Part shown: positions 18,401 to 29,109 of the stretch, piece after piece
How the letters are laid out: each line of letters opens with the position of its first letter
Position numbering within the stretch: the stretch's first letter is position 1
NCBI GenBank assembly: GCA_945890645.1
Contig: CAMDCV010000040.1
Span: forward strand, 1 to 36,513
From: Akkermansia muciniphila
Lineage (GTDB): Bacteria > Verrucomicrobiota > Verrucomicrobiia > Verrucomicrobiales > Akkermansiaceae
Length of the DNA stretch: 36,513 nt
Reading direction: 5' to 3'
Position numbers and translations under genes: made by a program
Notes under the pieces: generated by a model
What the model was told of the DNA's origin: nothing
The model's input: the letters and a program-made list of their open reading frames with translations, nothing else
Databases searched by the model: none

Positions 18401-20218
18401 GACCGTGGTGACCGGCAGGACGTTGGCGGCTCCACTGGTGTTCCTGATCGTCACAGAGTTGTTTATGTTCCCAGTCGACATCGTGGTGCTGCCGGCATAC
18501 GTGCCCGCCACGCCCAGATTGAAGGATTGGACGTTGCCACCGCTGGCGACGTTGGGAGTGGTGAAGATCACATTGCCCGCACCACCGATCGCGCCATTGA
18601 GGGTGATAGAGCCTGCAGCTGCGGTGTTTCTCGTAAATGAAATCGTGGAACTGACACCCGAATTGGCGAGGGTGATCGGTGCTGCGAGAGTTATGCCGTC
18701 AATCAGAGTGGTAAGCGTGGCGGCACTGGTTCCGCCGAGGGTGATGCCACTGGTGTTCTGAAGGGCCAGAGCGTTGGTGAGGCTCAGGGTGCCTTTGGTG
18801 ATGGTGGTGGCGCCGGAGTAGGAGTTGGCACCGCCTAAGACCACGGTGCCCGGCGTGCCGGTCGGGGCTGTGCCGGCGATCGTGACAGCTGAAGCGCCGC
18901 CGCCGTTATTTACAATCGGAGCGTTGATGGTCAACGAGGAACTGTTATCCATGGCAAGCACCAGGTTTCTTTCCGAACCGATGACGAGATTACTGACTCC
19001 TGTTCCAGCGTTAATGATGACCGCTTGCGCTGACTTGATCTGGATCACTGAGTTCAGGGTCAGGGTACCGCTGTTGGCGATGGTGAGAGGCACGCCGTTT
19101 GAGTTGGCATTCAGAAACAAGCTGTAAGCGGTTGCTCCGGTGTTCGTCAGTTGCACGTTGGAAGATGCGCTGAACTGGTACGACGCCGTTGAGTCAGTTA
19201 AGTTGGTAGCTGAAACATTGGCTAAATTTCCTTTCTGCAGAAGCTGGCCACTGGAATTCACGGCGGCCAATCGGAGTGTTCCATTGGCACCGCCGGTTAT
19301 GCGGTTAAATACGCCGGCGTTGACAAAGGCCGTCGTGGCTCCGCTGGGAAGAGTAGGGACGCTGCCGCCGGCGGTAATGAACACCAGTTCCGTGGTGGAT
19401 GCGGTGGTCGTCCAAGCAGCAGTCGTATTGAAGGTCGTCGCGGAACCCGAGTTTACGGTGAGCATGCCGAGATTGAGGGTGGCGGATGTGGCCGATACGC
19501 CTTTGGCGATGTTGATCGTATTGATTCCTGCGCCGAGCGAGGTGTCGGCGAAAGTCTGGTCCGTGGTGGCGGCGGCGACGTTCTTGCCAGTGATGGTGAG
19601 CGCTCCGTTGTTGATCTGCAGGGCGTTGGTGGCGTCAACGAGGTTGGTCGGAGTGGCCAAATTATTGTAATTCAGTGCAAGCGTTCCCGCCCCGACCGTC
19701 ACGCCACCATTGAATGTATTCACGTCAGAGCTGCTAATGGTGAGAGAACCAGCACCTAGCTTAGTGAGCCCGACACTGCCACCGATGATCGTGTTTGTAG
19801 CATTTCCGATGGTGGCTGAGAGTGAAGTTCCGACGGTAATATTTCCACCTGCGCTGCCAAGGGTAACAATACCACCAGTTCCTTCAATAGTGGCGGTACC
19901 TTCTTGAAAGGAAAGGCTTCCCGCATTTTGTGCATCAGTCAGGCTGATCGTATAGGCGCCCGTTGCATCTGAGCCTGCCGAGAAAATCAGGTCGTCAGTA
20001 GCAAGAGTTGTGTATGCGGATGTGGTGGTTGCGCCGGTAGCATCGGTGCTCCATGTGGTACCCGCAGTACTCCACGAGCTGCTGGGGGTGGCGCCACCCG
20101 CGCCAGGGGTATCGCTATTTACATCCCAATAGTAGGGTGCCGCTATGGCAGAAGGTGTTGACAAAGTGAGACTAATTGAGACAAGGGCTCCGAATGAGAA
20201 AAGGCGGTTTGGTTTCAT
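15494..20218 (-). CDS. Giant autotransporter-associated beta-strand repeat protein, Asp-rich C-terminal domain
   Basis: The product has 1574 residues with a signal peptide (1-27, ending SAIAA). At least nine beta-strand repeats can be read, for example LTKLGAGSLTI, LNKLGANDLTLDQASNYTG, LTKNGANTLTLSQVNSYGG and LVKSGSGTLVLGAANTYSG; a long beta-helix is expected. Unlike its paralogue it has no PEP-CTERM tail. It ends in a domain of about 120 residues (1454-1574) with a Ca-binding-like DFDNDGISNIVEYALG (1475-1490) and the sequences WVIETSQTL and FARLKVIQV. This type of ending is frequent in secreted verrucomicrobial proteins (my recollection). No autotransporter translocator barrel is present. 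It was probably expressed from the promoter at 20299-20326. Function beyond a surface role is unknown. Confidence 0.85.
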   Translation of the reverse strand: MKPNRLFSFGALVSISLTLSTPSAIAAPYYWDVNSDTPGAGGATPSSSWSTAGTTWSTDATGATTTSAYTTLATDDLIFSAGSDATGAYTISLTDAQNAGSLSFQEGTATIEGTGGIVTLGSAGGNITVGTSLSATIGNATNTIIGGSVGLTKLGAGSLTISSSDVNTFNGGVTVGAGTLALNYNNLATPTNLVDATNALQINNGALTITGKNVAAATTDQTFADTSLGAGINTINIAKGVSATSATLNLGMLTVNSGSATTFNTTAAWTTTASTTELVFITAGGSVPTLPSGATTAFVNAGVFNRITGGANGTLRLAAVNSSGQLLQKGNLANVSATNLTDSTASYQFSASSNVQLTNTGATAYSLFLNANSNGVPLTIANSGTLTLNSVIQIKSAQAVIINAGTGVSNLVIGSERNLVLAMDNSSSLTINAPIVNNGGGASAVTIAGTAPTGTPGTVVLGGANSYSGATTITKGTLSLTNALALQNTSGITLGGTSAATLTTLIDGITLAAPITLANSGVSSTISFTRNTAAAGSITLNGAIGGAGNVIFTTPNVASGGNVQSFNLGVAGTYAGSTTMSTGNINNSVTIRNTSGAANVLPVTTVLTMSGGNGAGSGRTVTFDLNGQNQELAGLTNVTAVDRNQRITSSNAATLTINNSADYTFGNNTTGADPGSGQLTGAVALTKKGAGTFTLASGIGHTHTGKTVVEAGILSLGNTNSLQNSAFDTTNSIVGDATNGLRSTVTTLNIGGLIGNKNFADVFTTTSGGYTGLTTLTLNPSTGVTHTYSADIGDGATGMNLIKTGAGTQILAATQSYTGTTTGSAGALIATTAAALPGFNVAGKVIFNGGTIGAQVGGAGWTTTDVDTLLTNATKTSGALGIDTTNGNLTQWTPFTTTNLGSLGLNKLGANDLTLDQASNYTGTTTVTQGTLTLTHANALQNSPLVTTGAGSIALNIGTVLNLGGLSGATGDLASVISNYASVTAINLNTPPTLPAAALGYSGIIAEGATGTTLTKNGLGVQVLSGANTYTGATQINEGTLVFRSKAAKAGGIATVAATGTVGLGVHPTDTAFYSAAEVDALFNTDSLTGFDLDPASGVVIDTTAASFDQTIALTANRTLTKNGANTLTLSQVNSYGGTTIVTAGTLSLTGSLTGGGAISTTGAGVFSQSAVGVISGASTFTQGSSGISTLAGANTYSGVTNVNLGQLTISHATALGTTGGNTVVASGGRLAMATASLSVAEPLNVTGTGTTATNGAINFGGAVSGMALTGPITLGGATLIQADGSTGSTLSGGISLGANVLTINTDGGATQTINTNAITGTGGSLVKSGSGTLVLGAANTYSGNTTVSAGTLSLADNAQLAFVLGSTSGTNNSITGAGSTTLDGDFVIDTSTADALATGTWTLENVTTATYGATFTVVGFVDAGDNKWTKDISNKRYTFDEVTGILTLAPAGNYDSWANDPLKGNIPGELPANDFDNDGISNIVEYALGQNPRVSSQPAGALVGNDITYTKGADAIANGDVSWVIETSQTLAPGSWTAQVTQPAADPTLTISYTFTPGSPVKNFARLKVIQVP
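17823..19680. repeat. Block shared with 12940-14815 (paralogous repeat, copy 2)
   Basis: This is the partner of copy 1 inside the larger repeat protein gene. The encoded proteins share long identical runs, such as TVTTLNIGGLIGNKNFADVF and TNALQINNGALTITGKN. Two DNA tracts without visible differences, 18076-18202 and 18204-18266, show recent exchange. Outside this block the two genes differ: the larger gene has several extra repeats and a different C-terminus. Confidence 0.8.
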
Positions 20219-20549
20219 ATGGGTTATTTTTTATATGCTACGAAGCACGGCTGCAAAACTGCTGCCGGCTCCAAGAGCAAAGGGTTTAATGCTAGGGTTT
20301 TGTAGGCTACGTTACATTACTGTCAAAAAATATTCAGTAACTAAACTGTAGATCTAAACGACTAGCCAAACTGCTGCGCCCTGTCACGCAAAAAAGAATT
20401 TTTTTTCATTTTCTCTAATTTTGTTTAGTACAGGAGCCAGGCACACAGGAAAAAGTAGCAGGGAAAAGCAAATGCTACGGGAGCTGAAACTCCCCACACG
20501 AGGAAGGGCGATATTTTTGCTTTTTCCGCAAACATGCGTAGCATAGTGC
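20219..20549. other. 331-bp intergenic region between divergent genes
   Basis: No gene was found here. It holds a minus-strand promoter candidate (20299-20326) and a small hairpin, GGGAG (20479-20483) with CTCCC (20490-20494) around a 6-nt loop. Another short inverted pair, GTAGC/GCTAC, lies just before it. A run of T at about 20399-20406 follows AAAAAAG. The region separates the giant repeat gene (minus strand) from the SnoaL-like gene (plus strand), so it must carry promoters for both. No small RNA could be identified from sequence alone. Confidence 0.5.
20299..20326 (-). promoter_or_regulatory. Candidate promoter of the giant repeat gene
   Basis: On the minus strand TTGACA (20326-20321) is followed after 16 bp by TACAAA (20304-20299), a perfect -35 box and a 4/6 -10 box for a housekeeping sigma factor. 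Transcription would begin near 20292, giving a leader of about 70 nt before the ATG at 20218. The call rests on consensus and position only. Confidence 0.45.
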
Positions 20550-20987
20550 ATGATACTAGAAGATCAGAAATTGGCGCTTTCACGGATGGCAGGATTTTTC
20601 CAAGAAATGAGTGCCACGACAGTGGGACGTGTCGCTGAGTTGTATGCGAAAGATGCCACTTTTCGCGATCCGATTAACGAAGTGATTGGTGCGAAGGCGA
20701 TCGCAGCAGTCATGGCGGATTTGTTTCATCAATTGAAAAACATTCGCATCGTTGTGCGCGAAATGCGTGGCGATGAAGACGCAGGATGTTTGCTGTGGAC
20801 GATGCACTATGACTTTCGTGGGAAAAAACGCAGCATCCCCGGTGTGAGCCATTTTCGCTTCAATCAAGAGGGTTTGGTGACGGCACAGGAAGATTACTGG
20901 GATGCGTCGTTTGTGTTGTACGGCGAGTTCCCGATTTTGGGTGCGATCATGCGCGGCATTCGCCGAATGGTTCGAGTGAAGGTGTAG
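20550..20987 (+). CDS. SnoaL-like / NTF2-like fold protein
   Basis: The protein has 145 residues and no signal peptide. The helix-rich start, YAKDATFRDPINEVIGAKAIAAVMADLF and then YDFRGKKRSIPGVSHFRFNQEGLVTAQEDYWD form the conserved order of SnoaL-like/NTF2-like small proteins (a cone-shaped alpha+beta pocket). Such proteins act as small isomerases, hydrolases or ligand binders in the cytoplasm; no specific reaction can be given. In related bacteria similar genes often sit with photolyase, cyclopropane synthase or short-chain dehydrogenase genes, but none is present here, so the context is uninformative. It stands alone, 198 bp before clpB. Confidence 0.72.
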   Translation: MILEDQKLALSRMAGFFQEMSATTVGRVAELYAKDATFRDPINEVIGAKAIAAVMADLFHQLKNIRIVVREMRGDEDAGCLLWTMHYDFRGKKRSIPGVSHFRFNQEGLVTAQEDYWDASFVLYGEFPILGAIMRGIRRMVRVKV

Positions 20988-21185
20988 GCGTTTTTCTAGA
21001 CAAGCGGAGAGGTGAAAAATCGTCGAAATATCATAGCAACTATTTTACGAAAATAATTTGAATAAACTTTTCTCTATGACATCATACCCATGACAATAAA
21101 AAAGGCGCACAAATCCGCAACGACAGCGTAGCGATCGAGCGACTTCTCACCTATCGTAACTACACACCAAGAAAGAACCAAAACC

Positions 21186-23759
21186 ATGGGACTCGATAAA
21201 ATCACTCAGAAAATGCAAGAAGCTTTGCAGCAAGCGCAACGACTCGCCTCAAAATCGAGCCATGCGGAATTGAAGAGCGCGCATGTGTTGCAAACCTTGC
21301 TCGAACAAGAAGGCGGCATCCTCATTCCCATCCTGCAAAAGGCTGGCGTGGACCTCGCGGCCTTGAAAGCCGCCGTGCGCGATAACCTCGCCGCCGAGCC
21401 AAAGGTGCAGGGCTCCACCTCGCAACCACAGCTCAGCTACGGCTTGCGCGCGACCCTGGAAAAAGCCGACGACGCCCGCGAATCGCTCGGTGATGACTTT
21501 CTTAGCGTAGAGCACTTTGTGTTAGGTTCGCTGAGTGCCGACTCCCCCGCGGGCAAGTTGCTGAAAAGTGCGGGCCTCACGGAGGCGAAAGCGCGTGAAG
21601 CGATTCAATCAGTTCGCGGCAGCCAAAAGGTCACGGATGAAAATCCCGAAGGGAAATACCAAACACTCGAAAAATACGGCACCGACCTCACCGCTCGCGC
21701 TCGCGAAGGAAAAATTGATCCCGTTATCGGCCGCGACAATGAAATCCGTCGCGTGATGCAAGTGCTTTCCCGCCGCACGAAAAACAACCCAGTTCTCATT
21801 GGTGAACCCGGCGTCGGCAAGACTGCGATCGTCGAAGGCCTCGCCCGACGCATCGTTTCGGGTGACGTGCCGGAGTCGATGAAAAACAAACGCATCATCG
21901 TCATGGATGTCGGCGGCATGCTCGCTGGCGCGAAGTATCGCGGCGAGTTCGAGGATCGACTCAAGTCTTTCCTCAAAGAAGTCACCGAGTCGGAAGGACA
22001 AATCATTTTGTTCATCGATGAACTCCACACCATCGTCGGCGCCGGAGCTAGCGAGGGAGCCGTCGATGCCGCCAATATCCTCAAACCACAACTCGCCCGT
22101 GGCGAGCTCTCCACCATCGGCGCGACGACTCTCGACGAATATCGCAAGCACATCGAAAAAGACGCCGCTCTTGAGCGACGCTTCCAACCCGTGCTCGTCG
22201 GTGAACCATCCGCCGAAGACACCATCGCCATTTTGCGCGGCCTCAAGGAGCGCTACGAAGTGCACCACGGCGTGCGCATCCAAGACGGCGCGTTGGTGGC
22301 CGCGGCGATGCTGTCCGACCGCTACATTGCCGATCGTTTCCTGCCGGACAAAGCCGTCGATTTGATCGATGAAGCTGCCTCGCGTTTGAAAATCGAACTC
22401 GACTCGATGCCCACCGAGATCGATCAGATCGAGCGCCAAGTGCTGCAACTTGAAATGGAGAAAAAAGCGTTAGAAAAAGAGAAAGACAAAGCTTCGCTCG
22501 CACGCTTGGAAAAAGTCAAAGAAGAGCAATCGAACCTCAAGGAGCAGAGTGCCGCGCTCATCACGCAATGGCGCAATGAAAAATCGGTCATCGATGAAGT
22601 GCGCGGTGCGCAAGGAAAAATCGAATCGCTCAAAACACAAGCGGAACAAGCGCAGCGCATCGGCAATCTTACCCGTGCTTCAGAAATCACTTATGGCGAA
22701 TTGCCAAACGTGTTGCGCGAACTTGAAACCGCGAAGGAAAAACTCGCAGAGTATCAACTCAACGGCGGCATCCTCAAAGAGGAAGTCACCGAGGACGATA
22801 TTGCCCGTGTCGTTTCGGCCTGGACTGGCATCCCCGTCAATCGCTTGCAAGAAGGCGAACGCTCGAAATTGCTCAGCATGGAAGCCCGCCTCGGCGAGCG
22901 CGTGATTGGTCAAAAGAAAGCCATCACTGCTGTATCGAATGCTGTGCGCCGCGCGCGTTCGGGCTTGCAAGATGAGAACCGCCCCGTCGGATCGTTCCTC
23001 TTCCTCGGCCCCACCGGTGTTGGTAAAACGGAACTCTCGAAAGCCCTCGCGGAATTTCTCTTCGACGATGAAAACGCGATGGTCCGCATCGACATGTCGG
23101 AATACATGGAAAAGCACAGCGTCGCCCGACTCATCGGCGCACCGCCGGGATATGTGGGATATGATGAAGGCGGTCAACTCAGTGAACGCGTGCGACGCAA
23201 GCCCTACAGCGTCATCCTTTTCGACGAGGTCGAAAAAGCGCACAGCGATGTTTTTAACGTCCTACTGCAAGTGCTCGATGATGGACGCATCACCGATGGT
23301 CAAGGTCGCACGGTCGATTTCCGCAATACCGTGATCATATTAACTTCGAACATCGGTTCGCAATACATCCTCCACGAAGAAAACGCCGAGCAGCGCGAAG
23401 CAAAAGTGTTAGAAGCACTGCGCGCGCATTTCCGTCCCGAGTTTCTCAACCGCATCGATGAAACCATCATCTTCGATCGCCTCGCGCGTGAGGAAATCAC
23501 CAGCATTGTCGAGATCCAACTGACGCGCCTGCGCCAACGTCTCGCCAAGCAAGGTCTCGCGCTCGCTCTCAGCAGCGAAGCGAAAGAATTTCTCGGCACC
23601 CAAGGTTACGACCCGATCTACGGCGCCCGCCCCCTCAAACGAGCGATTCAGCATCATCTGTTAGATCCCCTCAGCATGGCCGTCCTCGATGGCAAATTTC
23701 AAGAGGGCGATGTGATCGAAGTCGGAGTCGAAAACAATGCGCTGACGTTTGTGAAATAA
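21186..23759 (+). CDS. clpB: ATP-dependent disaggregase ClpB
   Basis: The 857-residue length is normal for ClpB. It consists of an N-domain of two Clp repeats (about 1-145), AAA+ module 1 with Walker A GEPGVGKT (206-213) and Walker B ILFIDE (274-279), the coiled-coil M domain (about 400-525, rich in Glu/Lys heptads), and AAA+ module 2 with Walker A GPTGVGKT (608-615) followed by the ClpB C-terminal domain. The M domain distinguishes it from ClpA and ClpC. The protein resolves aggregated proteins with DnaK. The start is supported by an AAGAAAG ribosome-binding-like sequence upstream. No CIRCE element (HrcA site) was seen in the 198-bp upstream region, so its heat-shock control is not evident. 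It appears monocistronic, with REP palindromes directly downstream. Confidence 0.97.
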
Positions 23760-23775
23760 GGAGAGGGGTTTCAAT

Positions 23776-23801
23776 ATGGAGAAGGGGATTGCATCCCCTT
23801 T
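23776..23801 (+). repeat. REP palindrome 1 (left pair, forward)
   Basis: ATGGAGAAGGGGATTGCATC followed by CCCTTT. The core AAGGGGAT-TGC-ATCCCCTT (23782-23800) is a perfect 8-bp stem with a 3-nt loop. The identical 26-mer occurs at 24452-24477. It starts 17 bp after the clpB stop and could also serve as a 3'-end structure for that mRNA. Confidence 0.8.
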
Positions 23802-23836
23802 GTATTTAAGAAGAATTGAATTAGACTTCGCAAAAA

Positions 23837-23861
23837 AAGGGGTTTCAAACCCCTTCTCCCT
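23837..23861 (-). repeat. REP palindrome 2 (left pair, inverted)
   Basis: Core AAGGGGTTTCAAACCCCTT (23837-23855) followed by CTCCCT. Read on the minus strand it gives AGGGAGAAGGGG, the same head as the forward units, with a changed inner stem (TTT/AAA in place of AT/AT). Together with 23776-23801 it forms an inverted pair of the BIME type. It abuts the stop codon of the transposase gene. Confidence 0.75.
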
Positions 23862-24453
23862 ATTTCCAAAGGCGGAACGTTCCCGCTGGTAGTTTTTCAG
23901 GATTCCTCTCGATGTATTCTCTCACCCACTGGATGTGACGCTCACTCCGAATCAGCCTATCCCAATATTCACTTTGCCAAAGCGCTCCTTCTCGACTTAG
24001 TAGTTTATTAATTTGGCGCGCACTGAATCGCTTCCATGATCCGATAACATCTTCCAAACGACTCTCTTCGAGCAGATAGAAAAGCACATGCACGTGGTTT
24101 GGCATCACCACAAAGCAGTCCAGCGCGTAACGCTCACCTTGGAAGTGCAGCAGCGCATCCACCACTATGTCGGACATCGCAGGATTTTTTAGTATACAAC
24201 TTCCGTGCGCATCATCCAGCAGTGATTCGAAAGCGAGGGTAAAGAGTCGATTGTGTTCTTTTCTTTCTTTATCCGTCCAAGGCTTTGGGTGTGATGCCTC
24301 CCAGCGCTTCCGACGCTCATCGAGCTTCCGCACAACTGCCTCCGGTCAGGAATCTGCCAGCCTCCAAGTGACAAACAACCACGTCACTTCTTGCTGCCGG
24401 TGTGGCAGGTTCACCCGGTGCTTATCGATCTTCTTGTTAGGGTCTAGGAACAT
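23860..24453 (-). pseudogene. REP-associated tyrosine transposase (RAYT, Y1 family) broken by an in-frame TGA
   Basis: Translation from ATG 24453 gives MFLDPNKKIDKHRVNLPHRQ, then VTWLFVTWRLADS, a TGA stop (24348-24346), and in the same frame PEAVVRKLDERRKRWEASHP up to the stop at 23860. The second part carries the HUH metal motif (VVMPNHVHVLF), GALWQSEYWDRLIRS with the likely catalytic Tyr, and VREYIERNPEKL. All are hallmarks of RAYT/TnpA-REP proteins, which process REP palindromes as single-stranded DNA. Related proteins usually read LADSLPE across this point, so a Leu codon appears to have become a stop (for example TTA to TGA). A GTG at 24333 could start a shortened protein of 157 residues, but it would lack the first core strand. 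Two REP pairs flank the gene. Confidence 0.85.
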
Positions 24454-24477
24454 GGAGAAGGGGATTGCATCCCCTTT
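24452..24477 (+). repeat. REP palindrome 3 (right pair, forward)
   Basis: This is an exact copy of the 26-mer at 23776-23801, with core stem AAGGGGAT/ATCCCCTT at 24458-24476. Its first two bases overlap the start codon of the transposase gene (24453-24451), so the palindrome forms the immediate upstream region of that gene. Confidence 0.8.
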
Positions 24478-24513
24478 CTTTTCGAGCCATAGCCCATTGT
24501 CAATAATGAAGAA

Positions 24514-24540
24514 AAGGGGATGTAATCCCCTTCTCCCTAT
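24514..24540 (-). repeat. REP palindrome 4 (right pair, inverted)
   Basis: Core AAGGGGAT-GTA-ATCCCCTT (24514-24532) followed by CTCCCTAT, as in REP 2. With REP 3 it makes an inverted pair separated by about 36 bp, the same layout as the left pair. It ends 10 bp from the stop codon of the glyoxalase-family gene. Confidence 0.78.
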
Positions 24541-24549
24541 TCTCTACGA

Positions 24550-24927
24550 TCACCTGCGCTCCAGAATCTCCACCTCATACCCATCGGGATCGGTGACGAA
24601 TGCCATCTTTTTTTCATCGTTTAAAAACTTCTCACGCCACGCCGAGGGCCAGATCTCGATGCCGGACTTTTCCACTTGGTCGCAATAAGCGATGATGTCG
24701 GGGACGCCGAGACAGGTGTGCATCAAGTCCTCGGGGCAAGTGGCCGTGTAGTCAGGCGAAAAACAGAGTTCGAGAAACACGTCGTTCCCGGGGAGTTCGA
24801 GAAACACTAACTGATTGCCTTGGGGTGAGGCCTTGCGCACTCCTTCGGTGTAACCGAGTTTTTTGTAAAAATTGACGGAGGCTTCGATGTCTTTCACGCG
24901 GATGCGGGTGTGTAAAAAGCGGATCAT
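24550..24927 (-). CDS. VOC superfamily protein (lactoylglutathione lyase-like)
   Basis: The protein has 125 residues with two beta-alpha-beta-beta-beta units of the vicinal oxygen chelate fold. It starts FLHTRIRVKDIEASVNFYKKLGY (His6 a likely metal ligand), continues LELCFSP (Glu), LMHTCLGVPD (His) and ends DPDGYEVEILER (Glu), matching the H-E-H-E metal set of glyoxalase I. It may detoxify methylglyoxal adducts in the cytoplasm. Length is close to that of glyoxalase I of bacteria, but the name gloA is not given because many VOC proteins share this pattern. It lies between the REP cluster and the divergent recG gene. Confidence 0.78.
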   Translation of the reverse strand: MIRFLHTRIRVKDIEASVNFYKKLGYTEGVRKASPQGNQLVFLELPGNDVFLELCFSPDYTATCPEDLMHTCLGVPDIIAYCDQVEKSGIEIWPSAWREKFLNDEKKMAFVTDPDGYEVEILERR

Positions 24928-25050
24928 GCGAGAAGCCTAGCGCAGCACTCACTCATGCGCAAGCCCAGGAGATTTTGATAAAAGGTGTTCTGATGAGTAT
25001 TTGTGATTGGCAAGTGTGATGTCTTACGCGCATGATGCCGCCACACTCTT

Positions 25051-27111
25051 TTGGACGCCTCGCTCTTACTTCCCGCCAGCAATTTGCTGGAAAAATCTTC
25101 CTTCCTCATGCCGAAGGAAATCACCTCGCTTAAGGCCTCGGGGCTACTGACGTATGCTGATTTGCTGATGCACTTGCCGAAACGTCATGAAGATCGACGC
25201 CAGTTCGATGCCTTCCCTGTGATGCCGACCGCGCATGCGGTGTGCCTGCGCGGGATGGTGATCGATGCGCGTTCGATGCGTTTTTCTTCCTCCTATGCCG
25301 CGTATGAAGCGATCATTCTCAATGGCAGCGGCGGGGTGTTTGGCTCTAACAAAATTACCTGCCGCTGGTTCAATATGCCTTTTCTCTCAAAGATGCTGGC
25401 CGCCGGGCATGAGGTGATTGTTTATGGCAAGGTCAAGGATTTCAAAGGCAAGTTGGTCATCGATCATCCGGAATTTGAAATCATCCGCGATGAGGGCTCT
25501 GAGTCGATTCATGTCGATCGCATCGTGCCGGTCTATAAAAACTTCAGCGGCATCGCCCAGCGGCGCTTGCGGGAAATCCAGCACTTGTTGTTGCATCGTG
25601 TGAATCCTGCGAGTCTTGATTTCCCCATCGATGTAGCACCAGGGCGTGATCGATTCGCGGATCTGCGACTCGCGCATTTTCCAGAGCAACTCGAACAAGC
25701 ACAGCAAGCACGCCGTCGTTTTGCGTTAGAGGAATTTTTCGCCTTACAACTCAACGTCGTCTGGCGTCGTGCGCGTCACCTTGATGTCGCGGGTCGAGTG
25801 CTGGGTCGCAAGACCACATTACTGAAAGCGTTTTATGCATCGCTGCCTTTCGATCTCACCGGTGCCCAGAAGCGATCGATCAAAGAAATTTTAGCCGACA
25901 TGCGCAGCCCGCGTCCGATGAATCGCCTGCTGCAAGGTGATGTCGGTTCGGGAAAAACCTTCGTTGCGATGGCATCGATGCTGCTCGCCATCGACTCCGG
26001 TTGTCAGGCGGCATTGATGGCCCCCACGCAGATTCTTGCGGAGCAACATTATCTCACGTTTCAAAAATGGCTTGCCCCTCTTGGCGTGCGGATCGCTTTG
26101 CGCACCAGCAACCGCGAGGAAAATTCGCATCATGCCGATGACGGAAATGCGCAAATCATCATCGGCACGCACGCATTGCTCTACGATGCCAGCGCATTTC
26201 CTGATCTGGGATTTGTGGTAATCGATGAGCAACACAAGTTCGGTGTGTCGCAGCGCGCGCGTTTGATTTCCCATGGCGTGAAGCCTGATGTGTTAGTGAT
26301 GACTGCCACACCGATTCCGCGCACCTTGACACTAACACTTTACGGTGACCTTGATGTTTCCGTGCTCGATGAGCGCCCGGCGAATCGCGGAAAAATCATC
26401 ACCGCACTGCGCAAAGATCCGAAAATTTCCGACATCACGGCATTTCTCAAACAACATCTGTTAGATGGTCGTCAAGCGTATCTCGTCTATCCCTTGGTCG
26501 AAGAATCCGAGACCGTCAAAGCGGAGTCGGCGACGGAAGCATTCATCAAATGGCAGAAACGCCTCAAGCCGCACGTCACCGGATTGCTGCACGGAAAAAT
26601 GTCAGCGGAGGAGAAAGAACGCACCATGCAAGAGTTCCGTGCGGGTGATGTTCATACACTCGTAGCCACTACGGTGATCGAGGTCGGCGTCGATGTTCCG
26701 AATGCGAACATCATGATCATTCACAGCGCCGAGCGCTTTGGTTTGGCGCAATTGCATCAGTTGCGCGGGCGCATCGGGCGTGGAGAACACAAGTCGTATT
26801 GTATCCTGCTCACCGACTCGAAAGCCCCCGAGGCCTTGGAAAAATTGCAGGCACTGGTGGATAGCAGTGATGGCTTCGTGATTGCCGAAGTCGATCTGCG
26901 CCTGCGTGGTCCCGGCGATGTGTTAGGCACTGCGCAAAGTGGCATCGCCGACCTGAAATTTGCGGACTTCCTAGCGGACCCGACTTTGCTGCGCGAAGCC
27001 CGTGCTCTGGCCGATGAAGTCATCGCGCGTGATCCGCTGCTCGATGGCGAACATCACGCTTTACGGTTATGGATTTCCACCGAACTCGCTCTTAAGGAAC
27101 AGCGGGATTAA
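25051..27111 (+). CDS. recG: ATP-dependent DNA helicase RecG
   Basis: The product has 686 residues from TTG 25051, close to the usual RecG length. The N-terminal wedge (OB-fold) region contains LLMHLPKRHEDRR (about 38-50) and the VYGKVKDFKGKLVIDHPEFE stretch. The helicase core has Walker A GDVGSGKT (296-303), the DEQH box (392-395, followed by KFGVSQRARL, typical of RecG), MTATPIPRT, and motif VI QLRGRIGRG. The C-terminal LRGPGDVLGTAQSG is also characteristic. It remodels stalled replication forks and recombination intermediates. The start is uncertain: TTG 25051 is the first start after an in-frame stop, and ATG 25108 is an alternative that loses 19 residues. Its stop overlaps the stop of the convergent gene at 27108. 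Confidence 0.95.
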   Translation: MDASLLLPASNLLEKSSFLMPKEITSLKASGLLTYADLLMHLPKRHEDRRQFDAFPVMPTAHAVCLRGMVIDARSMRFSSSYAAYEAIILNGSGGVFGSNKITCRWFNMPFLSKMLAAGHEVIVYGKVKDFKGKLVIDHPEFEIIRDEGSESIHVDRIVPVYKNFSGIAQRRLREIQHLLLHRVNPASLDFPIDVAPGRDRFADLRLAHFPEQLEQAQQARRRFALEEFFALQLNVVWRRARHLDVAGRVLGRKTTLLKAFYASLPFDLTGAQKRSIKEILADMRSPRPMNRLLQGDVGSGKTFVAMASMLLAIDSGCQAALMAPTQILAEQHYLTFQKWLAPLGVRIALRTSNREENSHHADDGNAQIIIGTHALLYDASAFPDLGFVVIDEQHKFGVSQRARLISHGVKPDVLVMTATPIPRTLTLTLYGDLDVSVLDERPANRGKIITALRKDPKISDITAFLKQHLLDGRQAYLVYPLVEESETVKAESATEAFIKWQKRLKPHVTGLLHGKMSAEEKERTMQEFRAGDVHTLVATTVIEVGVDVPNANIMIIHSAERFGLAQLHQLRGRIGRGEHKSYCILLTDSKAPEALEKLQALVDSSDGFVIAEVDLRLRGPGDVLGTAQSGIADLKFADFLADPTLLREARALADEVIARDPLLDGEHHALRLWISTELALKEQRD

Positions 27112-27851
27112 TCCGATAATTTCGTCACAACGATGAATGATCCGAAACTGTTACTCGGTTTGTAGAGGTCGTCACCGGAACGCATTTGGCTGATGTCCCC
27201 ATCGAGAAACAGGGCGTCGTCGCAACCGAGCTTTCGAAACAATTCAGCGAACTCATGCAGGTTGGGAAATTTGGCTGATTTGAAGTCGGTTATGACAAAA
27301 ATCACTTCACCCGTTTTGGCGACGCCGATGCCATTGCGGTGCAATCGAGAAGTTGATTCTGCACGGAATACCGGATGGATTTTTCCCTGTCTGAGTAACA
27401 AAGGTCCTGATTGCACAGCATGTAGAATGTTTTTGTCGCGAAGAGGATATTCATCGGTGCGAATCACTGCAGCACCTTTGTCATGGAGTAGAAAAATTCC
27501 GTTAGGTTGCAAGAAGAAGTTGCCTTCACCGGGATTGCGATTCACGGGGTTAAGTTCCTTGCCTTCTTGAATCAGCAAACCACTGGGTATTCCGCCCGGT
27601 TCGAAAATCCCGCCATTCATCAGAGTGTCGATCGCGATGTTTTTGCTTTGATAAAATCGCGCGACCTCGGGAATGGTTCTGAGCTGCTTTTCCGCATCGT
27701 CTTTCCAAATGATTTTGATCGAAGCAACGGGCGCGGAAAGGATATAATAGGTAATACCATCGATGACTCGTTTCTCCGGTGCGGCATTGGCTTGGGTGAG
27801 ACACATCAATGCGATCAGTATAGAAATTATTGGGATATTATATCTTTGCAT
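27108..27851 (-). CDS. Secreted phosphodiester glycosidase-like (DUF2233/NAGPA) protein
   Basis: The protein has 247 residues with a signal peptide (1-23, ending ANA-A). The conserved sequence MNGGIFEPGGIPSGLLIQEG (about 77-96), VQSGPLLL, HRNGIGVAKTGEVIFVITDF and ALFLDGDISQMR match the phosphodiester glycosidase domain (NAGPA, also DUF2233). Members remove sugar caps from phosphodiesters in eukaryotes; bacterial members act on cell-wall or exopolysaccharide glycans, mostly unproven. It is the last gene of a six-gene minus-strand run, 19 bp after the WG-repeat gene. It converges on recG with stop codons sharing four bases (27108-27111). Confidence 0.82.
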   Translation of the reverse strand: MQRYNIPIISILIALMCLTQANAAPEKRVIDGITYYILSAPVASIKIIWKDDAEKQLRTIPEVARFYQSKNIAIDTLMNGGIFEPGGIPSGLLIQEGKELNPVNRNPGEGNFFLQPNGIFLLHDKGAAVIRTDEYPLRDKNILHAVQSGPLLLRQGKIHPVFRAESTSRLHRNGIGVAKTGEVIFVITDFKSAKFPNLHEFAELFRKLGCDDALFLDGDISQMRSGDDLYKPSNSFGSFIVVTKLSD

Positions 27852-27870
27852 ACAGGCGGAATCCGTTTTG

Positions 27871-29109
27871 CTATGCTTTCACAATTCGTTGAGCGTTCCT
27901 GAAATACTTCCTCGTTACGAGAACTAATAGCCAACATCCGAAAAGAATGAATCCGGTGTATCGAATCAGCTTGCGCCAGGTGATCTGAGAACCTGACCAA
28001 ATGAGACGTCCTTGCTCATCATAGCATCCAGGCTGAAAGGAGATGCGTGCCTCACTTAATCCGTAGTTTGGCGGAGGGATGCGTGCATACCATTCCCTTT
28101 CCGGTGCCATCGGGTCCTTGATCAACCTCAAATCCCCATCAGCGAGTGGCACTACCCAGTTTCCTTTTCGATCAATCAATCCGCTGCGATGGCCATCCTG
28201 CACGGCTAACACTTTCGGATGCTTGGCAAATGAATAAAACCATGATCCTGCATCCGTGGGAAATCGGCATTGGATCACTTCATTCCCGTTACGATCAATC
28301 CAACCGACATGCCGATTGGTCCAATCGGTTATCTTGACAACCTTGGCGAGTCCCCCTGCATCGAACGGTTGCACGGTTTCGTAGCGCAGTGGGATTACGA
28401 TTTCCCCCCGGCGATTGATAAATCCCGCGCTGCTGACCGAGGTGGCAGCGGCGAGTCCCTGTGCATCAAATTCCGAGAGTTCGCGGTAGTGAGGACGCAC
28501 AATGCGATTACCTGCTGCATTGATGAGCCCCCATTTCCCATTGCGGCACACGCGGGCGACACCCGCTTCATCGAAGCTGAATGCCTCATCCCAGACAAAA
28601 GGCAGCACCTCTTTTCCCGTGCGATCGATGAATCCCCAGTAGCCATTTTTGCACACAGCGGCGGCCTGATTTCCTTGAAATGGGTGCGCCGCTTCCCACG
28701 TTCCCGGAAAGGCCGGTTGTTGATTTTCAAAGACCCAGCGGTTGTTCCCTGGATTACGCAGCAATATCATCCCTTGAGAGTCAGGGCCGAGAGGAAGATG
28801 ATCGGGGTGCATTTGCGAATACTGAATATGTCCAGGGCACTCTGATGCTTTTCCGGTGCGGTCGATTTGATAGCAATTCTTTTTACTGATGGTCACATGG
28901 CTCATGCCCTTGTCGTCAAAAGAACCGGCATAGAGCCAAGGGCCGGGATGAACGACCGCACCAGAATCATTGATGAAGATCATCTGTTGGTCTTGTCGAT
29001 GTACCGGCAGAAGTATCCCGGGGCGAACCGGGAGCAACGAGAGCGATACACAGACCACGGCGATCCATAACAAAAGATGACGCATGATGATGGTGAGTGC
29101 GCGTTTCAT
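27871..29109 (-). CDS. WG-repeat membrane protein
   Basis: The protein has 412 residues. An N-terminal hydrophobic segment (about 11-27) acts as signal or anchor, and a second one lies at 383-398 near the C-terminus. Between them are at least five WG-type repeats (about 135-325), each about 35-45 residues, for example YWGFIDRTGKEVLPFVWDEA, KWGLINAAGNRIVRPHYREL, VGWIDRNGNEVIQCRF and RSGLIDRKGNWVVPL. Such repeats form a beta-propeller-like or solenoid surface and are thought to mediate binding; no enzymatic residues were seen. The ATG follows the stop of the upstream gene (TGAG-ATG), so translation is probably coupled. Confidence 0.8.
   Translation of the reverse strand: MKRALTIIMRHLLLWIAVVCVSLSLLPVRPGILLPVHRQDQQMIFINDSGAVVHPGPWLYAGSFDDKGMSHVTISKKNCYQIDRTGKASECPGHIQYSQMHPDHLPLGPDSQGMILLRNPGNNRWVFENQQPAFPGTWEAAHPFQGNQAAAVCKNGYWGFIDRTGKEVLPFVWDEAFSFDEAGVARVCRNGKWGLINAAGNRIVRPHYRELSEFDAQGLAAATSVSSAGFINRRGEIVIPLRYETVQPFDAGGLAKVVKITDWTNRHVGWIDRNGNEVIQCRFPTDAGSWFYSFAKHPKVLAVQDGHRSGLIDRKGNWVVPLADGDLRLIKDPMAPEREWYARIPPPNYGLSEARISFQPGCYDEQGRLIWSGSQITWRKLIRYTGFILFGCWLLVLVTRKYFRNAQRIVKA

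Follow-up and report, generated by a model that had tools for sequence, protein, structure and literature searches.

What has become of the REP-associated tyrosine transposase (RAYT) encoded in the 36,513-nucleotide stretch of Akkermansia muciniphila DNA analyzed here (the window), whose reading frame is broken by a TGA after only 35 codons? The original prediction placed a RAYT gene cut by an in-frame TGA at 23860-24453, and the minus-strand translation bears this out. The frame from 24453 to 23860 comprises 198 codons, final stop counted, and its sole internal stop is the TGA at 24348-24346; the minus strand of 23860-24471 translates as MFLDPNKKIDKHRVNLPHRQQEVTWLFVTWRLADS, the stop, then PEAVVRKL...FRLWK and the final stop. 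The gene and its principal landmarks are as follows.

23860 to 24453, minus strand: interrupted RAYT gene, from ATG 24453 to the final stop TAG at 23860-23862
24346 to 24348, minus strand: in-frame TGA, codon 36
24088 to 24096, minus strand: HUH motif, HVH at residues 120-122 when the frame is read through
23914 to 23916, minus strand: codon of Tyr 180, which lines up with Tyr 115 in 4er8 (E. coli TnpA_REP)

Homology had also been claimed to go on either side of the TGA, and this proved correct: identity to the intact relative L041 is 31 of 35 residues ahead of the stop and 119 of 161 beyond it, so the continuity of the frame reflects homology and not chance. The part after the TGA matches the Pfam family Y1_Tnp (PF01797) with an E-value of 8.7e-9, above the curated cut-off, and the 35-residue part before it matched no Pfam family by itself. 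The HUH motif and catalytic tyrosine that characterize a RAYT are both present (HVH 120-122 and Tyr 180), with Y115F described as a catalytic mutant of the E. coli enzyme (PMC8266576). The intact reading frame of a RAYT is lacking: the TGA at codon 36 makes this an interrupted RAYT and most probably a pseudogene.

The gene sits between four REP sites.

23778 to 23798, plus strand: exact REP, forming the downstream inverted pair with 23839-23859
23839 to 23859, minus strand: REP with 3 mismatches, abutting the final stop of the RAYT
24454 to 24474, plus strand: exact REP, abutting the ATG of the RAYT
24516 to 24536, minus strand: REP with 1 mismatch, forming a REPIN-like inverted pair upstream of the RAYT with 24454-24474

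Two inverted pairs therefore bracket the RAYT, one upstream (24454-24536) and one downstream (23778-23859), and in the order listed their sites differ from GGAGAAGGGGATTGCATCCCC by 0, 3, 0 and 1 mismatches. The earlier description of the REP sites as almost perfect fits three of the four (0, 0 and 1 mismatch) but not the site at 23839-23859. As in other RAYT systems, the REPs are also dispersed elsewhere: 17 sites with up to three mismatches were found in the whole genome, 10 of them exact, four lying at the gene and 13 further away, against 0 for a reversed control pattern, and a looser pattern gave 27 sites against 2. Inverted pairs occur at several places in the genome, spaced start to start by about 40 to 109 bases. 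The tetranucleotide tag before the REP palindrome is not GTAG but GGAG. This is a variant of GTAG and does not exclude the gene from the RAYTs, as GTAG is a consensus for which degenerate variants are described in some families (PMC3733652). A partial REP, GGAGAGGGGTTTC, lies at 23760-23772, right after the stop codon of a clpB-like gene and beside the complete REP at 23778. Inspected by eye, the REP sites of the genome (L094-L120) mostly have TA and one further base in front (TAAGGAG, TAGGGAG, TATGGAG, TACGGAG), suggesting that REPs often follow or supply the stop codon of the upstream gene; the site at 24454-24474 is an exception to this rule.

The genome from which the window comes (G000) is a 3.82 Mb assembly in 66 contigs, 97.55% complete. 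The original prediction called for a search for other RAYTs that could act on the REPs in trans, and this search recovered no intact RAYT with these REPs in the assembly. PF01797 has nine matches (E up to 1), none of which is a second RAYT flanked by a window-type REP in this 97.55%-complete assembly; the only other match on a contig with such REPs (C28) lies about 5.5 kb from them. An uninterrupted RAYT-like gene on contig C19 (L002, G000:C19:56126-56482) was the sole other match of this genome in a protein search; it is 41% identical and is bracketed by an inverted repeat of another kind. Action in trans by a second RAYT of the assembly was rejected, as only the window RAYT lies among these REPs and L002 has another repeat. 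Within the assembly, then, the window-type REPs appear to have lost their enzyme. An intact copy could have been missed, since about 2.4% of the genome is absent and repeats assemble badly. Elsewhere in the genome, a Y1 transposase at G000:C5:126986-127317 (L035, L039) is split over two frames that cover adjacent pieces of the profile (6-61 and 62-121), and is probably a second broken copy.

Among the relatives compared, the TGA is confined to the window genome. GTDB species genomes were scanned with a four-sequence alignment, yielding 53 loci, and codon 36 was compared in the first 14 of the 53 listed (L041-L054), among which L048-L051 are RAYTs inside LeuRS. All 14 have a sense codon there, leucine in 13 and isoleucine in one (L052), and none has a stop anywhere in the 195 codons compared. 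The nearest among them are L041 and L042, both Verrucomicrobiaceae MAGs, at 75-76% identity. The eight nearest full-length relatives (L041-L047, L053) also use the ATG 24453 start, and the position of GTG 24333 is GTA in L041 and L042, which rules out an ancestral GTG 24333 start. The comparison in close relatives that had been proposed thus contradicts the case in which they would all have the stop and start at GTG 24333. A family-wide profile search of 195 genomes returned at least 150 matches, and internal stops were found in five among the 150 matches listed (G000, G173:C342, G135:C98, G139:C530 and G193:C36); broken copies are therefore occasional and the window genome is not peculiar in having one.

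The position of the stop relative to the predicted fold, and to a nearby GTG, involves two further features.

24358 to 24381, minus strand: stretch encoding strand beta-1 (residues 25-32), ahead of the stop (AlphaFold2 model, DSSP)
24331 to 24333, minus strand: GTG at which translation may restart, 12 nt past the TGA, with GGAGG at 24339-24343 lying 5 nt upstream

In an AlphaFold2 model of the read-through frame, made from 19 aligned sequences (mean pLDDT 79, pTM 0.71, residues 1-5 and 7-22 under 50), residues 25-32 form beta-1 and residues 38-54 a helix, so that the TGA would sit directly behind beta-1 and part it from the rest of the fold. The first PDB fold match is 4er8, E. coli TnpA_REP with a REP hairpin (E 9.8e-5, with a TM-score of only 0.37-0.44 and an rmsd of 15.3), and 4er8 is again the first match in a sequence profile search (E 5.9e-5). 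In E. coli TnpA_REP, some of the residues contacting the GTAG tetranucleotide before the REP are reported in regions that include beta-1 (PMC8266576). A product begun at GTG 24333 would keep the HUH motif and the tyrosine but, according to the model, would be without beta-1, and is expected to be inactive. The original prediction had left open whether the transposase is inactivated or expressed in an N-terminally shortened form. Inactivation is favored, with a stop in none of the 14 relatives and little decay; a shortened form that remains active is unlikely, because a stop right after beta-1 leaves its product without this strand.

The rest of the gene speaks to the age of the loss. Of 67 columns at which nine relatives all agree, the window deviates at 3 (W19R, the stop and I136V); the corresponding figure for other rows of the same alignment is 0-12 of 64-76. 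Relative-rate tests pairing the window with L041 or L042 over seven outgroups found no difference in amino-acid rate in 14 of 14 comparisons (largest chi-square 1.0). Under a purpose-written codon model on a FastTree tree, omega was 0.087 on the window branch versus 0.083 elsewhere (LRT 0.005), and a value of 1 on the window branch was disfavored (LRT 4.67). The 95% range for that branch, taken from the lnL profile, is about 0.035-0.5; it excludes 1, and it is wide enough to be compatible with a neutral phase over part of the branch. Compared with each of the seven outgroups, the 35 codons before the stop are identical at 24-29 positions in the window and at 26-29 in L041, giving sums of 184/245 and 191/245, a shortfall explained by W19R alone; after the stop the corresponding sums are 645 and 643. 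All nine other sequences agree at the column struck by W19R, so it is possible that this change represents a second lesion or an earlier onset of decay. The scarcity of other decay and the near-intact conservation ahead of the stop suggest that the stop probably arose late on the window branch. The recent loss that had been proposed is consequently supported, by the absence of the stop from all 14 relatives compared and by the little decay elsewhere in the gene, whereas the REP near-identity offered as its sign agrees with it and is by itself weak evidence.

We consider it very probable that the window contains a REP-RAYT-REP module of a Verrucomicrobiota genome, in which the RAYT has recently been lost through a nonsense codon right after beta-1. 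In this model, the RAYT would by homology nick and rejoin single-stranded REP hairpins, thereby copying REP pairs of the GGAGAAGGGG type, until a nonsense codon was gained directly after beta-1. Translation would now give a 35-residue peptide, with little or none of the catalytic part being made and that part, if made, being without beta-1. The REPs, left without their enzyme, should now decay. We infer the function of the enzyme, the inactivity of the present protein and the fixation of the change in the population. Such decay is commonplace for this known class of element and is how its genes usually end.

Could the gene in fact be intact? The TGA might have arisen through miscalling or a faulty consensus, or reflect a variant of a minor strain, in an assembly that is multi-contig and probably metagenomic; both the unrelaxed appearance of the remainder of the gene and the 66 contigs of the assembly would suit such an origin. 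We nevertheless regard it as unlikely, given that the window and L041/L042 differ here at four adjacent bases, beyond what one miscall would produce, albeit in a comparison with relatives that are only about 75% identical, and that the frame is otherwise unbroken, with no hint of indel errors. A real stop could still permit a shortened or two-piece protein, with translation ending at the TGA and restarting at GTG 24333 to make a HUH protein of 157 residues, whether or not the 35-residue peptide accompanies it. The GGAGG 5 nt before the GTG, itself 12 nt past the stop, would suit a restart, as would the absence of both from L041 and L042, which have GGAAG and GTA instead, and the retention of HUH and tyrosine in the downstream part. 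However, the main product would, on the model, be devoid of beta-1 (residues 25-32), the 35 codons ahead of the stop show hardly any relaxation, which is unexpected for a long-standing shortened form, and no relative of the 14 compared has the stop, making this explanation very unlikely.

The least likely explanation, to which we assign only a very slim chance, is low-level read-through of the UGA that supplies enough full-length transposase, the stop damping expression without abolishing it. UGA followed by C is a leaky stop context; the base after this TGA is C, and there is little relaxation on either side of it. Against this, the stop is found only in the window genome among the 15 sequences compared here, and TGA is a normal stop, terminating 8 of the window's 22 open frames of at least 250 codons, a set that will include spurious ones. 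A change of genetic code was likewise ruled out, as TGA ends ordinary window frames and is absent here from the 14 relatives. Recent loss of the RAYT by a nonsense codon remains our preferred explanation.

The surroundings of the gene bear on the mobility of its clade. Two genes, both named by eye from their translations, lie on either side of the module.

21186 to 23759, plus strand: clpB-like gene
24550 to 24927, minus strand: VOC/glyoxalase-like gene

Flanks were compared by local BLAST of open frames of at least 110 aa, using the window span 20001-28500 (the flanks of L043 and L006 were short). Within the few kilobases compared, the window shares no neighbor besides the RAYT with L041-L047 or L006, and two further hits (L043, L046) are an antisense frame of the RAYT. 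L041 and L042 have a common locus, as do L006 and L046; the module thus occupies different places in the window, L041/L042, L043, L044, L045, L047 and L006/L046. These unrelated loci indicate that RAYTs of the window clade have moved or been transferred.

Not all members of the family are free-standing. In the 195-genome profile search, 57 among the 150 matches listed lie in open frames of at least 500 aa. From 79 loci submitted we obtained 77 RAYT-bearing frames of at least 480 aa, 75 of them distinct, and clustered them by their host parts; L024, at 443 aa, and L191, which has an internal stop, were dropped. Pfam was run on 18 frames, and the remaining cluster members were named by similarity.

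RAYT in LeuRS, 23 frames, related Verrucomicrobiota: L008, L009, L031, L048-L051, L169-L175, L177-L179, L182, L184, L185, L187-L189
RAYT in MetH (cobalamin-dependent methionine synthase), 22 frames: L124-L128, L193, L197-L202, L204-L206, L209-L212, L214, L215, L217
RAYT in adenosine deaminase-like protein, 4 frames: L007, L013, L180, L190
RAYT in IspG, 4 frames: L026, L203, L213, L216
RAYT in CarB, 4 frames: L121, L122, L181, L186
RAYT in DUF5107-TPR protein, 4 frames: L123, L195, L207, L208
RAYT in glycosyltransferase, 3 frames: L014, L016, L132
RAYT in HsdR-type protein, 5 frames in two clusters (3 + 2), several lineages in the quick tree: L060, L167, L168, L194, L196
RAYT in single hosts: L129 (AlaRS), L130 (RecG), L131 (NUDIX), and a methyltransferase-like case named by eye

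Two of the frames, L183 and L192, carry the RAYT at one end and may be long only by chance. Pfam recognized host domains in 18/18 frames and Y1_Tnp, within the chosen E-value, in 15/18, missing it in L129 (AlaRS), L130 (RecG) and L194 (HsdR). With L183 and L192 left out, simple patterns found HUH in 71/73 embedded domains (misses: AlaRS, RecG) and the tyrosine motif in 65/73 (misses: five MetH, two HsdR, one IspG). A quick tree of 98 RAYT domains sorts them largely by host, with one change each for IspG, CarB, the adenosine-deaminase-like, DUF5107 and glycosyltransferase hosts and three each for LeuRS, MetH and HsdR (at least two of those for HsdR are required by starred branches). The window RAYT groups in it with a set of 10 free copies (SH-aLRT 99).

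A single site of the LeuRS editing domain, corresponding to roughly residues 421-437 in the G000 LeuRS, takes the in-frame insert; the embedded RAYTs often carry translated REPs and keep HUH and tyrosine in 23/23 cases. In 19/19 RAYT-LeuRS genomes searched (23 such loci) the interrupted LeuRS is the sole match (E up to 1e-30), so the fused protein is presumably the working LeuRS. LeuRS is uninterrupted in G000, G009 and G006. Exceptions are G165, with halves on separate contigs, G183, where the contig ends inside the gene, G118, where the first piece extends to 472, and G185, with three pieces; the rows of G005 and G108 have one stop each, within the first eight aligned residues (from frame starts). 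The MetH insert falls within the activation domain in L125 (Pfam) and, by eye, seemingly at another site in L214. In-frame intragenic REPs are already known (PMC3733652), and a few unexpectedly long TnpA proteins, attributed to gene fusions or annotation errors, are described as discarded (PMC6006769); among open-licence PMC papers, we found no report of whole RAYTs inside LeuRS, MetH or similar enzymes.

It is tempting to see the window RAYT as the free, expendable member of a clan whose other branches reside permanently in frame in LeuRS, MetH, IspG, CarB and others, held in place or homing like inteins without splicing, a tentative idea about which we have somewhat more doubt than confidence. 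Embedded copies, which mostly keep their catalytic motifs and form lineages largely specific to a host gene, would be held because a stop codon inside them would kill the host enzyme, while free copies may die. In the same taxonomic family embedded RAYTs appear common and mostly intact, in contrast to the broken free copy of the window, and this lead deserves a separate study. The window genome itself, where the enzyme of one REP family has most likely been lost only recently, is a natural case for following how REPs decay once their RAYT is gone, in a field where one evolutionary model names RAYT evolution, loss included, as unaddressed (PMC8049555).

Several known systems resemble this module. 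TIRYTs and TIRtrons are tyrosine transposase genes between long terminal inverted repeats (PMC3733652), and inverted arms likewise flank the whole window module; its arms, however, are REPs of a dispersed family and not unrelated long TIRs. REPINs, inverted REP pairs thought to be mobilized by a RAYT in trans (PMC3116915), have their counterpart in the inverted pairs at several places in G000, although these are few (17 strict and 27 loose sites) and their RAYT is broken. RAYTs have been pictured as vertically inherited, single-copy genes (PMC8049555), whereas across most of the related species compared the loci of the window-type gene are unrelated. The gene itself is akin to RAYT/TnpA_REP of the IS200/IS605-like Y1 HUH family, as in E. 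coli 4er8: the window gene differs from it in its interrupting stop and in a REP tag of GGAG instead of GTAG, but shares its Y1_Tnp domain, HUH motif and tyrosine, has 4er8 as its first solved match by both sequence and fold, and is flanked by REP pairs.
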